Assembly: GCF_039655775.1 (NCBI RefSeq)
Contig: NZ_JBBYXJ010000002.1
Coordinates: 1,054,001-1,118,000, forward strand
Length of the DNA stretch: 64,000 nucleotides
Direction of reading: 5' to 3'
From: Iodidimonas sp. SYSU 1G8
Lineage (GTDB): Bacteria; Pseudomonadota; Alphaproteobacteria; SMXS01
Within the stretch, counting starts at the first letter, position 1. Each line of letters begins with the position of its first letter. This document shows, piece by piece, positions 18,830-37,376 of the stretch. The notes below the pieces were generated by a model. The model worked only from the letters and a program-made list of their open reading frames with translations. It ran no database searches and was not told the origin of the DNA. Both the position numbers and the translations under genes were made by a program.

Positions 18830-20122
18830 GTGGTCGCCGTCGTCAGGGTACAGGATGATTGCTGGATTTCCGCGCGCAAGGCGCCCGAACCCGATATGGG
18901 CACGGCTCTCATTCCCAGTGACAGATACACCTCGTCCGCCTTCATGCGGCTCGAATGGGAGCGCATGTGGTCCAGGGTCTGGCTGGTCGGCTGCCGCGAG
19001 GAAGAAATTCCCGACACCGGCGACTACATCACCACTGAGATTGGCAGCGAATCCCTGCTGATCGTGCGCGGTGAGGATCGCAAGTCGCGCGCCTTCTTCA
19101 ATGTCTGCAACCACCGCGGCAATCAGGTGAAGTTCGACAAGTGCGGCAATTCCCGCACCCTGCAATGCGCCTATCATTTCTGGGAATACGACCTGACCGG
19201 CAAACTCGTGAACGTGCCTGACGAGGAAGATTTCCATCAGGGATGCCCCAAGGACCTGCTCAGCCTGAAGGAGATCAGGACGGACGTCTGGGGCGGCTTC
19301 GTCTGGTTCAACCTGAATCCGGATGCCGAGCCGCTGATGGATTATCTGGGAGTCATCCCGTCGCACCTTGATGCCTACGGCTTCGACCGGATGGCCATGA
19401 CCCAGAACTTCACGGTCGAATGGGACTGCAACTGGAAGACCTCGGTCGACGCCTTCAACGAGGTCTATCACGTCCAGTGCATCCATCCGGAACTGCTCTA
19501 CAACAATGACGATGTTGACGTGCAGATCGACCTCTATGAGCGGCACAGCCGCTATCTGGTGCCGTACCAGACCCACAGCCCGCGCCTGGGCGCGGTTGAG
19601 GAGGTGCCTGAGATCGTGGTCGAATACATGCGGTCCATCGGCATGGATCCCGAACCTTATCAGGGCCGGGTGCCGGAGATACGGCAGGCGATCAGCCGGT
19701 TCAAGCGCGAGCATCAGGATCGGCTCGGCTATGACTATTCCCGTCTGAACGACGACCAGGTCGTCGATGACTACCACTATTACATCTTTCCCAACATCAC
19801 CCTGAACATCTTCGCGGAATGGGCGCTCTTCTTTCGGCAGCGGCCGCATGACAGCGATCCCAACAAGATGTTTTACGACGTCCAGTTCTACACCACGGTG
19901 CCCAAGGGCCAGCCGCGCCCGCCACTCCCCGATCACGACCAGTTCCGGCACGGCGAAAAGTCGCTGGGGCTCGTGCTCGACCAGGATTCGGTGAACCTGC
20001 CGCATGTCCAGAAGGGCAACAACTCCTCGGCGTTCGAAGGGCTGTGGATCAGCCATCAGGAGCGGCGCATCCGGCACATGCACCAGACACTGACGGATTA
20101 TATCGACGGGAAGCGTCCCTAG
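18830..20122 (+). CDS. Rieske ring-hydroxylating oxygenase, alpha subunit (second copy)
   Basis: A 430-aa Rieske oxygenase. Cluster ligands are C93-N-H95 and C113-A-Y-H116; the residue after H116 is Phe (HFW), where HGW is usual. The catalytic site shows N201-W-K, E211-V-Y-H214 and H219-P. The start GTG is preceded by GGGAG at 7 bp. The gene for a SnoaL-like protein follows after 106 bp on the same strand, so the pair may form an alpha/beta-like oxygenase or consecutive pathway steps. It is only distantly similar to the Rieske protein at 2476 and has no copy of that cluster's operator. Substrate and redox partners are unknown. Confidence 0.9.
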   Translation: MVAVVRVQDDCWISARKAPEPDMGTALIPSDRYTSSAFMRLEWERMWSRVWLVGCREEEIPDTGDYITTEIGSESLLIVRGEDRKSRAFFNVCNHRGNQVKFDKCGNSRTLQCAYHFWEYDLTGKLVNVPDEEDFHQGCPKDLLSLKEIRTDVWGGFVWFNLNPDAEPLMDYLGVIPSHLDAYGFDRMAMTQNFTVEWDCNWKTSVDAFNEVYHVQCIHPELLYNNDDVDVQIDLYERHSRYLVPYQTHSPRLGAVEEVPEIVVEYMRSIGMDPEPYQGRVPEIRQAISRFKREHQDRLGYDYSRLNDDQVVDDYHYYIFPNITLNIFAEWALFFRQRPHDSDPNKMFYDVQFYTTVPKGQPRPPLPDHDQFRHGEKSLGLVLDQDSVNLPHVQKGNNSSAFEGLWISHQERRIRHMHQTLTDYIDGKRP

Positions 20123-20123
20123 C

Positions 20124-20142
20124 CCGACGCGGCGTCGGCGAC
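20124..20142. repeat. Repeat of the dyad element found before the second Rieske gene
   Basis: CCGACG-CGG-CGTCGG followed by CGAC (20124-20142) repeats, with one extra centre base, the element at 18745-18762 (CCGACG-AT-CGTCGG-CGAC). One copy lies upstream of the Rieske gene and one upstream of its SnoaL-like neighbour. It could be a shared operator or a terminator-like hairpin without T run. Confidence 0.3.
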
Positions 20143-20228
20143 CCTTACGGTATCCCGATTGCGGTGGCGCGCCGTCCCCCTCTGCGACTACATTACCTGC
20201 GCCTGTGACTTAAAAGGGGAGATGGGTA

Positions 20229-20771
20229 ATGAGCGTCGAAGCCGAACTGAAGGCGCTGCGCGCCGAAATCGAACAACTGAAATCCCGCGAACAGATCCGC
20301 CAGCAGATCACCCGTTATGGCCGTGGCCAGGAATGGCTCGACGGGTCGCTGATGGACGAGGTGTTTTACGATGACGCTCATGTGGATTTCGGTTTCTTTG
20401 TCGGCGAGTGGAAGGACTACAAACCGGTCCTGATGGAGATCGAGGCCCATGGCGAGACCACGTTCCATCTGTGCGCCGCGCCCCAGATCGAATTCGAGGG
20501 CGAGAACAAGGCCTACGCCGAAGTCTATGGCATCGCCGGCGGCCGCGGCCATGACGGCAAGACCAACGTTTTTGGCGGCCGTTACTTCGACGTCTGGGAA
20601 CGCCGGGAGAAGACCTGGAAAATCGCCCGGCGCATCTTCAAGCTGGACTGGCACATCGACCACCAGTTCCCGCAGGGCGAGGCCGTGATGCACCCCGAAC
20701 TGGAGCCGGCCAAGCCGCGCTCGCCCCAGAACCCGCTGTTCCGCCGCATGGGCGCCGACGTCACGGGCTGA
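20229..20771 (+). CDS. SnoaL-like / NTF2-fold protein paired with the second Rieske oxygenase
   Basis: A 180-aa protein with an N-terminal coiled-coil-prone helix (MSVEAELKALRAEIEQLKSREQIR) and a SnoaL-like core (ITRYGRGQEWLDGSLMDEVFYDDAHVDFGFFVGEW, then GRYFDVWERREKTWKIARRIFKLDWH). NTF2-fold proteins include oxygenase beta subunits as well as cyclases and isomerases; here the Rieske gene directly upstream favours a partner or next-step role. The ATG has GGGGAG upstream. Its stop codon directly abuts the stop of the converging MFS gene. Confidence 0.83.
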   Translation: MSVEAELKALRAEIEQLKSREQIRQQITRYGRGQEWLDGSLMDEVFYDDAHVDFGFFVGEWKDYKPVLMEIEAHGETTFHLCAAPQIEFEGENKAYAEVYGIAGGRGHDGKTNVFGGRYFDVWERREKTWKIARRIFKLDWHIDHQFPQGEAVMHPELEPAKPRSPQNPLFRRMGADVTG

Positions 20772-26136: not shown

Positions 26137-26286
26137 TCGGTAATCCTCCCTTGTTGACCGGGGGTTACTCTGTGGTAAGCGGGCGGGCGGTGCAAGGAAG
26201 CTTGTCCCTTCACCCTTGCATGTTTTGCGCTGGACCCAGTGAGCCCGAGCGTGTCAGATCGCACCGGACCTTCAGGGAGAGACCAG

Positions 26287-27018
26287 ATGCTGAACAACCG
26301 GACGATCCTCGTCACCTCCGCGACTCATTGGGCGGGGCCTGAAATCTGCGCCGGCCTGGCTGTCGAAGGAGCGCGGGTTGTTTGTCAGGATCCGAACTTC
26401 GCCGACAAGGCGGTGGCCGATGCCTTCGTCGCGGCGCACCCGGCGCTTACGGCAATCGCCGAGGAAAAGCCCGCCGAGATCGTGGCGTCCGCGCTGGAGG
26501 TTCTGGGCCATCTGGATGTCCTGGTGAACAATGACGCGTTTCCTGCCATTCGGGCGCCCATCGAGACCGCCGACCCGCAGGATTTCCGTGACGGCATCGA
26601 AGCGCTGCTGGTGTTTCCATTCATGATGGCGGGCGCGGTCACCCCGCACATGAAGGCGCGCAAGGCCGGCAAGATCCTGTTCCTCACCTCGGCCTCGGCG
26701 CTCAATGGCCTCGCGAACTATTCCATGTACGCGGCGGCGCGCGCCGGGGCGAATGGCCTGGCGAAGTCGCTGGCCCGCGAGCTCGGCAAGGACAACATCC
26801 AGGTCAACGCCATCGCGTCCAACTACATCGAGAACCCGGACTATTTTCCGCCCGAATTGCTGGCCAACAAGGAAGCCTACGCCAAGATGGTGAAGAATAT
26901 TCCGCTCGGCCGTCTGGGCAAGCCGCAGGAAGCGGCGCATCTTGTGGCGTTCTACTGTTCCGACCGCAGCGACTTCATCACCGGCAATATCATGCCGTTC
27001 TCGGGTGGCTGGGCGTAG
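26287..27018 (+). CDS. SDR-fold protein with halohydrin dehalogenase signatures
   Basis: A 243-aa short-chain dehydrogenase fold lacking the glycine-rich NAD(P) motif (TGxxxGxG): residues 10-17 read TSATHWAG. The catalytic residues are S135, Y148 and R152, i.e. S-x12-Y-x3-R, with Arg where classical SDRs have Lys. Halohydrin dehalogenases (HheA/HheC family) are defined by exactly these two changes: a T-x4-F/Y-x-G halide-pocket motif replacing the cofactor motif, and a Ser-Tyr-Arg triad. They cleave vicinal halohydrins to epoxides plus halide. Here the motif is T-x4-W-x-G, with Trp at the F/Y position. Collinear similarity to remembered HheC is strong (e.g. PAEIV, DVLVNND, ARAGANGLAKSLARELG). 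GGGAGAG precedes the ATG. No epoxide hydrolase is adjacent. Confidence 0.7.
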   Translation: MLNNRTILVTSATHWAGPEICAGLAVEGARVVCQDPNFADKAVADAFVAAHPALTAIAEEKPAEIVASALEVLGHLDVLVNNDAFPAIRAPIETADPQDFRDGIEALLVFPFMMAGAVTPHMKARKAGKILFLTSASALNGLANYSMYAAARAGANGLAKSLARELGKDNIQVNAIASNYIENPDYFPPELLANKEAYAKMVKNIPLGRLGKPQEAAHLVAFYCSDRSDFITGNIMPFSGGWA

Positions 27019-27030
27019 GACGAAGCAGGT

Positions 27031-27522
27031 TCATCGCAAGATCATCTGCCACCAGCCCACATCATGAAACTTGTCGAACTTGAAACCTACTTCACGGTAG
27101 ATTCCGACCGATGAAAAGCCGACGCGCTCATGAAGCGCCACGCTGCCCTCGTTAGGAAGGGCAATGCCGGCAAATGCAGCGTGATAGCCCTGACGTTTCA
27201 GATGAGGCAGCAGAGAGCCATAAAGGGCGGTTCCTACGCCTGCCTGACGGTCATCTTTGTCGATGTAGACCGATACGTCGACGGAGGTGCGATAAGCGGC
27301 CCGCTCCCGGTGGGGGCTGGCATAGGCATAGCCGATAACTGTTCCATCGCGTTCCGCCGCAAAGAACGCATGAGCCGTTTCGATCCGCCGCGCCATTTCC
27401 GCGACCGTCGGGACTTCGTTTTCAAACGAGATCACCGTGTTCTCGACGATCGGAGCATAAATCCCGCGAACCGCGACCGCGTCAGCGGCGGTAGCCAGTC
27501 TGATACCAAGCGGGTTCGGCAA
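27031..27522 (-). CDS. GNAT acetyltransferase, phosphinothricin N-acetyltransferase-like
   Basis: A 163-aa GNAT protein with the Pat/Bar subfamily pattern: IRLATAADAVAVRGIYAPIVENTVISFE at the N terminus, VDVSVYIDKDDRQAGVGTALYGSLL (acetyl-CoA pyrophosphate loop QAGVGTA) and SVALHERVGFSSVGIYREVGFKFDKFHDV at the C terminus. Natural substrates of such bacterial enzymes are often amino-acid analogues such as methionine sulfone; resistance to phosphinothricin is only a family association. TTG 27522 follows GGGGGA at short spacing. It converges on the dehalogenase-like gene (12 bp between stops). Confidence 0.85.
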   Translation of the reverse strand: MPNPLGIRLATAADAVAVRGIYAPIVENTVISFENEVPTVAEMARRIETAHAFFAAERDGTVIGYAYASPHRERAAYRTSVDVSVYIDKDDRQAGVGTALYGSLLPHLKRQGYHAAFAGIALPNEGSVALHERVGFSSVGIYREVGFKFDKFHDVGWWQMILR

Positions 27523-28659: not shown

Positions 28660-29565
28660 TCAAGCGGGCAGATCGCCCGTGGCCAGCCATCGGGCGCAGG
28701 CCGCGCCCAGTTGCTCCTGAGCCATGGCCTCGTAGCGTGCGAGGTCCTCGGCCGTCAGCGTGTCGCGCCACCGGCCATTGGTGCCCTTGTTGATGAAGGT
28801 CTCGGCGCCGCCGTCCCAGAAAACGCCGCCCAGCGGCGCGGACTTTTCGGCATGGGCTTTCATGTAATCGAAGGTGCAATGTTCGACGATGGCCGGGAAG
28901 CGGTCCTCGTCGATGGGAATGTCCAGAAAGCCGGCGATACGGCGGATTTCGCCCGGCATGTCGCGTTTGAGGGCGCCGAAATGGACCAGCAGCACGTTGG
29001 GAAGGTGTCGGATTGTCCACCAGGAGCCGACATTTTCCCAGAACGGCCAGAAGGGGTAGCCGTTGCCCCCGAGCCAATCGAGAAAATACCGCCGGATCGA
29101 CGCAGGCGGTTTGTCGATCGCGGGACCCACGCGGCCCGGGCTATCGTTCAGCATGGCATACCAGGCGTCATTGGCATGCGCATGGTGATTGTAGAGGCTC
29201 CAGACCACATCGCGGCCATCCCGGGCGACATAGATGTATTTGGCCTGGGGCGAGAACACCAGGGCGTCGACCGGCAGATGGGTCTTCAGGAAACGACGGT
29301 GGGTCTGGGCCTCGATGGCCGGCAACTTGATGTCCGCAGGCGGAACCCGCAGGTCCACCCAAGGCGACAACTCTCCCACATTCACATCCTCCGCCCCGCC
29401 GAACACGAGCTGGCCGACAATCTGCTGCATCCAGGTGGTGCCGGATTTCGCATAGGTACCGATGATGATGTCATCGGGACGGAACCGGAAATCGTTCCAG
29501 ACGGTGGAATCGAAATGATGGTTGTGAAGTTCCCGGCGCTTGCTTGGCCAGACGATGGCGCTCAT
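28660..29565 (-). CDS. PAPS-dependent sulfotransferase (cytosolic SULT-like)
   Basis: A 301-aa sulfotransferase that would move sulfate from PAPS to a hydroxyl or amine. The 5'-phosphosulfate loop is YAKSGTTWMQQ (near residue 40), the 3'-phosphate site is YVARDGRDVVWSLY (near 110), and KGTNGRWRD near 270 matches the C-terminal RKGxxGDWK motif. The catalytic His is probably in THLP. It resembles animal cytosolic SULTs acting on small phenols or steroids more than bacterial carbohydrate sulfotransferases. The start codon overlaps the GST stop by 1 bp (TGATG), so the two are translationally coupled. The acceptor is unknown. Confidence 0.9.
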   Translation of the reverse strand: MSAIVWPSKRRELHNHHFDSTVWNDFRFRPDDIIIGTYAKSGTTWMQQIVGQLVFGGAEDVNVGELSPWVDLRVPPADIKLPAIEAQTHRRFLKTHLPVDALVFSPQAKYIYVARDGRDVVWSLYNHHAHANDAWYAMLNDSPGRVGPAIDKPPASIRRYFLDWLGGNGYPFWPFWENVGSWWTIRHLPNVLLVHFGALKRDMPGEIRRIAGFLDIPIDEDRFPAIVEHCTFDYMKAHAEKSAPLGGVFWDGGAETFINKGTNGRWRDTLTAEDLARYEAMAQEQLGAACARWLATGDLPA

Positions 29566-30191
29566 CAGGCCTTCGCGCTCTCGCGCGTGCTGACGGCCGC
29601 GTACCAGCGCTTCAGATTGGCCTGATCGTCGCCGATACCGGCCTTGATCGTGCGGGCAAAGTCGATGGTCACCAGCGCGGTGATGTCGGCAATGGCGAAC
29701 CGCGCGCCGCTGACGAACTCACTCTCACCCAGTCGCTGTTCCAGCAGCACCAGGAAATTGGCAAAGCGTGCCTTGCCCCGTTCCGCCAGTTCCGGAATCT
29801 GCGGGAAATCCGCCGGTCCCGTGACGCTGCGGTCCTTGAAGACGGGGCTGCTGTTGCGAAAGCCCTCGGCGACCGCGGCGAAGCCATGCTGTTCAACGCG
29901 CCGATCCCACATCATGACCTGCGCGCGCTCCAGCGGATTGCGGCCGACCAGCGGCGGATCGGGATAGACTTCCTCCAGGTAACGGCAGATCGCCGTGCTC
30001 TCGGTCAGGATAGTGCCATCGTCCAGCTCCAGCGCGGGTACCTCGGCCAGCGGATTGAGCTGGCGGTAGTCGCCCAGCTGGGCGCGCGTGCCGAGATCGA
30101 CCTCGAACTTCTCGATGTCGAGACCTTTCTCGGCGATGAACATGCGTACCCGGCGCGCATTCGGCGCCATCTTGAAGTCGTAGAGCTTCAT
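29565..30191 (-). CDS. Glutathione S-transferase family protein
   Basis: A 208-aa GST: N-terminal thioredoxin-fold domain MKLYDFKMAPNARRVRMFIAEKGL with EVPALELDDGTILTESTAICRYLEE (the ES pair binds the glutathione gamma-glutamyl group), then the all-helical domain with FVSGARFAIADITALVTIDF, the conserved N-capping box. It conjugates glutathione to electrophiles or acts as an isomerase. GGGAG at 7-bp spacing supports the ATG. It is the first gene of a minus-strand run with the sulfotransferase, cupin and glyoxalase I, suggesting handling of a reactive phenolic or carbonyl compound. Confidence 0.92.
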   Translation of the reverse strand: MKLYDFKMAPNARRVRMFIAEKGLDIEKFEVDLGTRAQLGDYRQLNPLAEVPALELDDGTILTESTAICRYLEEVYPDPPLVGRNPLERAQVMMWDRRVEQHGFAAVAEGFRNSSPVFKDRSVTGPADFPQIPELAERGKARFANFLVLLEQRLGESEFVSGARFAIADITALVTIDFARTIKAGIGDDQANLKRWYAAVSTRESAKA

Positions 30192-37151: not shown

Positions 37152-37231
37152 GGTGCTCCCTTTCGCAAAGCAAGAATCAGGGCGCACGGGCCAAGAACGG
37201 CGAGGCGCACAGCGCCGCCGCACTGGGAAAC

Positions 37232-37376
37232 CCGTTCTCTTTCATCCGGACTGTGACCGTCGGCTTCGGAGTTGCACCGAATCTGCTGACCCCGGCGATC
37301 TCCTGCCGGGCGCTCGCGGGCTTGCGCTGGCGCGCTTACCGCCGGTGGGGACTTTCACCCCGCCCCGAGAACGTTA
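37232..37376 (-). promoter_or_regulatory. FMN riboswitch (RFN element) controlling ribH2
   Basis: Read on the minus strand, the RNA has the RFN hallmarks in order: P1 strand CGTTCTC (37372-37366), GGGGCGGGGTGAAAGTCCCC and ACCGGCGGTAA, AGCCCGCGAGC, a variable stem, GATTCGGTGCAACTCCGAAGCCGAC, GGTCACAGTCCGGATG and closing P1 strand GAGAACGG (37239-37232). FMN binding stabilises P1. About 30 bases downstream CCGTTCTT (37200-37193) is complementary to the same 3' P1 strand, so competing pairing can switch the region before the ribH2 ribosome binding site (about 40 bp further). The expected effect is repression by FMN; whether by termination or by sequestering cannot be decided here. Confidence 0.93.

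Follow-up and report, generated by a model that had tools for sequence, protein, structure and literature searches.

Halohydrin dehalogenases (HHDHs), which are used for making chiral building blocks, are short-chain dehydrogenase/reductase (SDR)-like enzymes in which a Ser-Tyr-Arg centre, established for HheC, converts a β-haloalcohol into an epoxide and a halide ion. Two published HHDH motifs are T-X4-F/Y-X-G (motif 1) and S-X12-Y-X3-R (motif 2). In PMC11976700, the central aromatic residue of motif 1 is described as governing activity, stability and selectivity. In HheC this residue, F12, contacts the halide; the F12Y substitution increased activity up to 5-fold, and a water molecule near P175 stands in for the Tyr hydroxyl. 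Every F12 variant other than F12M and F12R was constructed, and the variants listed there as active in both directions carry G, A, C, S, Q, H or Y; F12W was made and is absent from that list. In HheG, significant activity was kept by Y18F only, and the words Trp and tryptophan are absent from the main text of the paper (PMC11976700). By analogy with these mutants, as far as that text describes them, Trp alone would be poorly accepted at this position, and because F12W is missing from the HheC active list a natural Trp may need remodelling of the pocket.

The window analysed here, a stretch of 64,000 nucleotides of Iodidimonas sp. SYSU 1G8 DNA, carries an HHDH-clade gene with Trp at precisely this position (Table 1). 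The reading frame is uninterrupted from the ATG to a TAG stop codon. A longer version of the same frame starts at a GTG at 26239; this is unlikely to be the true start, because a probable ribosome-binding site precedes the ATG and because the orthologues in the genus start at the same site or one codon before.

Table 1. Positions in the window of the HHDH-clade gene, its motif-bearing segments and neighbouring features
Feature	Position	Strand	Basis
HHDH-clade protein CDS, 243 aa + stop	26287..27018	+	ORF reading, homology, tree
AGGGAG, likely ribosome-binding site, 7 nt upstream of ATG	26274..26279	+	sequence reading
Motif 1, T10-SATH-W15-A-G17 (nucleophile-pocket loop; stands where SDR TGxxxGxG would be)	26314..26337	+	sequence, alignment
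W15 codon TGG (TTC/TTT in two same-family sister genera)	26329..26331	+	codon alignment
Motif 2, S135-x12-Y148-x3-R152 (catalytic Ser-Tyr-Arg), with genus-specific S137 and A138 inside	26689..26742	+	sequence, alignment
Pocket loop 177-188 (ASNYIENPDYFP), counterpart of HheC P175-L178	26815..26850	+	alignment
Rieske oxygenase alpha subunit and SnoaL-like gene	18830-20771	+	
GNAT gene	27031-27522	-	
Sulfotransferase and GST	28660-30191	-	
FMN riboswitch (RF00050)	37230-37376	-	

Residues 10-17 of the protein read TSATHWAG and residues 135-152 read SASALNGLANYSMYAAAR. The first-pass annotation had reported S-x12-Y-x3-R as kept, and indeed S135, Y148 and R152 are all present and unchanged across the six sequences from the genus. 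It had also placed a Trp at residue 15 where Phe or Tyr is expected, and both residue and numbering are right. Its reading of the other signature, T-x4-[aromatic]-x-G, stands for T10, W15 and G17, but the aromatic letter is not the F or Y that the published motif literally demands; since that literal F/Y is missed, the protein is classed here as an HHDH-clade variant rather than as a proven HHDH. Position 178, in the pocket loop, is Ser in the window protein and Pro in most of its clade.

Sequence searches placed the protein among HHDHs. The best solved structure in a phmmer search was 6a41, an entry named 'dehalogenase' (E 2.3e-74), with HheC, HheA and HheD2 entries next, and the first ordinary SDR was 7krk (E 1.3e-28). 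Ten of the 11 rows between 6a41 and 7krk can be recognized as HHDHs from their name or entry title; two of the 11 are named only SDR, one of which, 7b73, is identified as HheD2 in its title. AbHheG (7wkq) appeared as a weak row (E 1.9e-25). With a 35-row profile the gap between HHDH-type rows and SDRs was wider than with the single sequence, HHDH-type rows extending down to HheB (9e-51) before the first FabG (1e-44), and AbHheG ranked among the FabGs.

An AlphaFold2 model built from the 35-row alignment (pLDDT 93.3, pTM 0.92) matched 6a41 best (TM 0.95, Z 35.9) and HheC second (Z 33-34), and every entry in Foldseek ranks 1-16 and VIA ranks 1-8 is an HHDH or a 'dehalogenation enzyme'. FabG, which has the SDR fold in common with the window protein, scored Z 32.7, close behind HheC at 33.3, and the fold therefore separates HHDH from SDR weakly. 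The two groups part at individual residues. All 34 SDR sequences in the tree set carry Gly at positions 11 and 15 and Lys at 152, whereas the genus has S or F at 11 and W at 15, so that the glycine-rich NAD(P) motif is absent; position 152 is R in 59 of the 62 HHDH-like sequences and Q in three. The classical NAD(P)-dependent signatures TGxxxGxG and YxxxK are both missing from the window protein, the latter being replaced by YAAAR, and NNDA stands in place of NNAG. Judged from the split of the SDR and HHDH-like sequences at 11, 15 and 152, the motif match is not due to chance.

The phylogenetic analysis led to the same assignment. A phylum-wide profile search returned mainly FabG-type SDRs (E 1e-45 to 1e-40), with matches clearly better than this level in only five genomes, and its SDR loci were used as the outgroup. 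The tree set comprised 62 HHDH-like sequences (six PDB references among them) and 34 SDRs, 96 in total; the duplicate query row, a fragment (L166), two second ORFs and the loci L178-L180, which are second copies of L131-L133, were left out. The HHDH/SDR split had a support of 100/99. In a second, quicker tree, from which residues 8-19, 82-85 and 133-153 had been removed, this split was unchanged (SH-aLRT 99), and the placement is thus independent of the signatures. A phylogeny with characterized HHDHs had been proposed as a check of the original assignment; with HheA, HheB, HheC and HheD2 in the tree the query fell on the HHDH side, away from the SDRs, and the preference for an HHDH over an SDR oxidoreductase is upheld by the tree and the structure-database matches alike. 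By sequence, fold and tree, the window protein belongs to the HHDH clade.

Within the HHDH side, the query lies inside a genus clade of six (100/100), whose sisters are two other genera of the same family, both with Phe (96/82). As the sisters are same-family genera, the gene looks vertically inherited. The 35-row clade of the query also contains 6a41 (81/81); the long-branched HheA and HheC group together next to it, and the branch with HheB and HheD2 is distant. The query groups with none of subtypes A, B, C and D, the supports of the two groups being only 90/96 and 81/81. The suggestion that the Trp variant defines a new subgroup is therefore borne out in that Trp is conserved and marks one clade, but on the sequence tree this clade is one genus within the larger clade that includes 6a41, in which the remaining sequences read carry Phe, and not a new top-level subtype.

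The closest relative of known structure, 6a41, is 48% identical to the window protein and has the Ser-Tyr-Arg residues and the SNYVENPDYFPP loop in common with it. The two differ in motif 1 (TNVEKFAG, with Phe, versus TSATHWAG) and within motif 2 (SAAPLRG versus SASALNG), and the putative activity of 6a41 is taken from its entry name, no paper on it having been found in the literature searched. HheC from Agrobacterium radiobacter (1pwx and mutants) has the same HHDH fold (Z about 33), and its triad S132-Y145-R149 aligns with S135-Y148-R152 and its F12 with W15; however, identity in structure alignments is 37-39%, and HheC has Phe12, Pro135 and Pro175. The C-terminal extension with Trp249 described for HheC in PMC4989007 is absent from the window protein. 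HheA (4z9f, 1zmo), HheB (4zd6) and HheD2 (7b73) share the HHDH side of the tree but lie on branches separate from the query, with identities of ≤36% to HheA and HheD2 in structure alignments.

Position 15 was then compared across natural sequences. Among the 62 HHDH-like sequences, PDB references included, it is F in 40, Y in nine, W in six, G, S and P in one each and unreadable in four, the three non-aromatic cases being the Q152 paralogues. A further 52 sequences from one order and one family, two of which are repeat copies (L204 of L160, L208 of L166), gave F in 51 and one unreadable residue; the family search behind this set returned 63 matches, with 30 loci listed, 28 new ones read and 33 matches outside the count. 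Trp was found in all six orthologues read from the genus of the window, which rules out an accident of one strain, and in no sequence outside the genus among these two sets. No HHDH match came from the seventh genome of the genus, which is 78% complete. On the tree, Trp15 requires a single change. The codon is TGG in all six genus sequences versus TTC and TTT in the sisters, a difference of two bases that implies either an intermediate residue or a double change. HHDHs had been called rare, a view not supported by the counts: HHDH-like genes turned up in 45 of 385 genomes from the class, in 26 of 40 from one order and in 63 of 75 from one family. No report of a natural Trp in motif 1 was found in the literature searched, with most subscription journals outside its scope.

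The Trp is accompanied by other changes in the pocket. When the genus was compared with 26 Phe-bearing sequences of the same clade (L094-L119, without both L120 rows and L012), a strict rule gave ten genus-specific positions (11, 15, 19, 21, 44, 45, 110, 137, 138 and 195), and a looser rule (changed in the genus, with ≥75% constancy elsewhere) gave seven (15, 44, 138, 154, 178, 201 and 223). In the alignment, 11, 15, 137, 138 and 178 correspond to HheC N8, F12, T134, P135 and P175. With the pocket set defined as residues 10-17, 135-142 and 177-181 (21 of 243), it contains four of the ten strict-rule positions (P 0.006) and three of the seven looser-rule positions (P 0.016); these P values are descriptive only, because the pocket set was picked after the position list had been seen. 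As a control, seven other clades showed no excess under the strict rule (1/7, 2/12, 2/24, others 0), and the looser rule gave an excess in one of the seven (f66, 4/15, P 0.030). Ser178 is shared with the 6a41 lineage and is hence not unique to the genus. The neighbouring changes are, by analogy, candidates for compensation of the Trp.

The gene is the only HHDH in its genome, the next-best of 65 matches being a 31% SDR. All within-genus pairs gave dN/dS values of 0.10-0.34, and the gene is under purifying selection in the genus. The order SnoaL-like, MipA, DUF445, HHDH, sulfotransferase, with a Rieske oxygenase ahead, was kept in all five genus regions read (one sulfotransferase match covering only 100 aa), and a GST and a second SDR lie downstream in four, the fifth contig ending before this point. 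None of five regions read outside the genus has this arrangement, and one of them has a weak glyoxalase match. The HHDH gene stands single, and since both adjoining genes are on the opposite strand no operon partner is implied; an operon with dehalogenation partners was considered and rejected, there being none among the neighbours read. A plasmid-borne origin was likewise rejected, as a search of the plasmid collection with a limit of E 1e-30 gave no match. A tryptophan halogenase, as a source of organohalogen, was sought in the window genome and none was found. The same genome holds four EHN epoxide-hydrolase-like genes and three LEH matches, whose products, as annotated, could process an epoxide product further.

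Taken together, the data are best explained by a cofactor-free HHDH-clade enzyme that would still be working, with its nucleophile or substrate preference shifted by the Trp pocket (probability about 0.7). By analogy with HheC, Tyr148, activated by Arg152, would deprotonate the β-haloalcohol while Ser135 holds the substrate oxygen; the oxygen would close to the epoxide and the halide exit into the pocket that NAD(P) occupies in SDRs. In the reverse direction, an anion in the halide pocket would open the epoxide. The pocket Phe became Trp once, in the genus, together with F/S11, S137, A138 and S/A178, and the wider indole would fill the space of the water or Tyr hydroxyl of other HHDHs. An altered halide or substrate selectivity through Trp15, as first proposed for this gene, is plausible. 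That the remodelled pocket is functional but prefers another nucleophile, perhaps not a halide at all, is suggested tentatively and is itself doubtful.

An enzyme of HHDH descent might instead have moved past halide chemistry, Trp15 closing the halide site and Ser-Tyr-Arg carrying out another cofactor-free reaction, for instance an isomerisation or the attack of water or an organic anion on an epoxide. This is unlikely, if worth serious consideration. Because F12W is not listed as active and HheG tolerates only Phe, Trp could abolish dehalogenation; moreover, several pocket positions changed on the genus branch, and the conserved Rieske oxygenase, SnoaL-like, sulfotransferase and GST genes include no known dehalogenation partner. 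However, the triad, T10, G17 and the NY(I/V)ENPDYFPP loop are the same as in the Phe-bearing sisters, and the reported tolerance of HheC F12 for seven residues indicates that the position is not strictly bound to halide chemistry. A neutral or decaying paralogue, in which the Trp has no meaning, is very improbable: Trp falls outside the active mutants listed for the two tested HHDHs, but this is the only HHDH-like gene of the genome, is intact in all six genus genomes that hold it, and combines an invariant triad and Trp with the dN/dS values given above. Finally, the reading as an ordinary SDR oxidoreductase that uses NAD(P) and resembles HHDHs in its motifs by chance can be dismissed, for although Pfam and NCBIfam name SDR families alone (none of the 25 NCBIfam rows listed reaching its own cut-off) and FabG scores close to HheC in fold, the Gly, Lys and NNAG residues are replaced, the top structure matches are HHDHs and the tree split persists without the signature columns.

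If the more doubtful reading of a functional pocket with another nucleophile preference is correct, the rebuilt pocket would be a natural solution to a substitution missing among the reported active HheC and HheG mutants. With the natural Trp lineage, its Phe-bearing sister (about 60% identity) and a small set of pocket positions that vary along with the Trp, the changes that allow a Trp here can be tested cleanly, and searches with the published F/Y motif overlook HHDH-clade members of this kind.

Several further features were observed around the gene and among its relatives. The GNAT gene next to it matches the ArsN1 family B arsinothricin resistance N-acetyltransferases (228.9 versus the 210-bit NCBIfam cut-off); this gene and the glyoxalase I and cupin genes have no match at that place in the other genus regions read. 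The FMN riboswitch scored 112.4 bits. Records CALQFM020000004.1 (L010) and CAMDTB010000105.1 (L009) carry the HHDH of the genus (88%) and its conserved neighbourhood, and their titles, Candidatus Kuenenia stuttgartiensis and Rhizobium sp. Q54, are apparently misassigned. Two HHDH-like sequences, L108 and L113, have Ser in place of Thr at the first position of motif 1 (SNVAKFAG and SNPGRFAG), departing from the published motif, and L170, L173 and L174 have Pro or Ala in the catalytic Tyr column with the Arg kept, which may be an error of gap placement. In three genomes of one genus, HHDH-like genes occur in tandem about 25-40 bases apart (L120:736-1461 and L120:1501-2226; G105:C6:94862-96330; G302:C32:13782-15239). 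Arg152 and a motif 1 Tyr are found in one copy; the second has Gln152 and lacks an aromatic residue in motif 1, and the pair could form an active/inactive heteromer.
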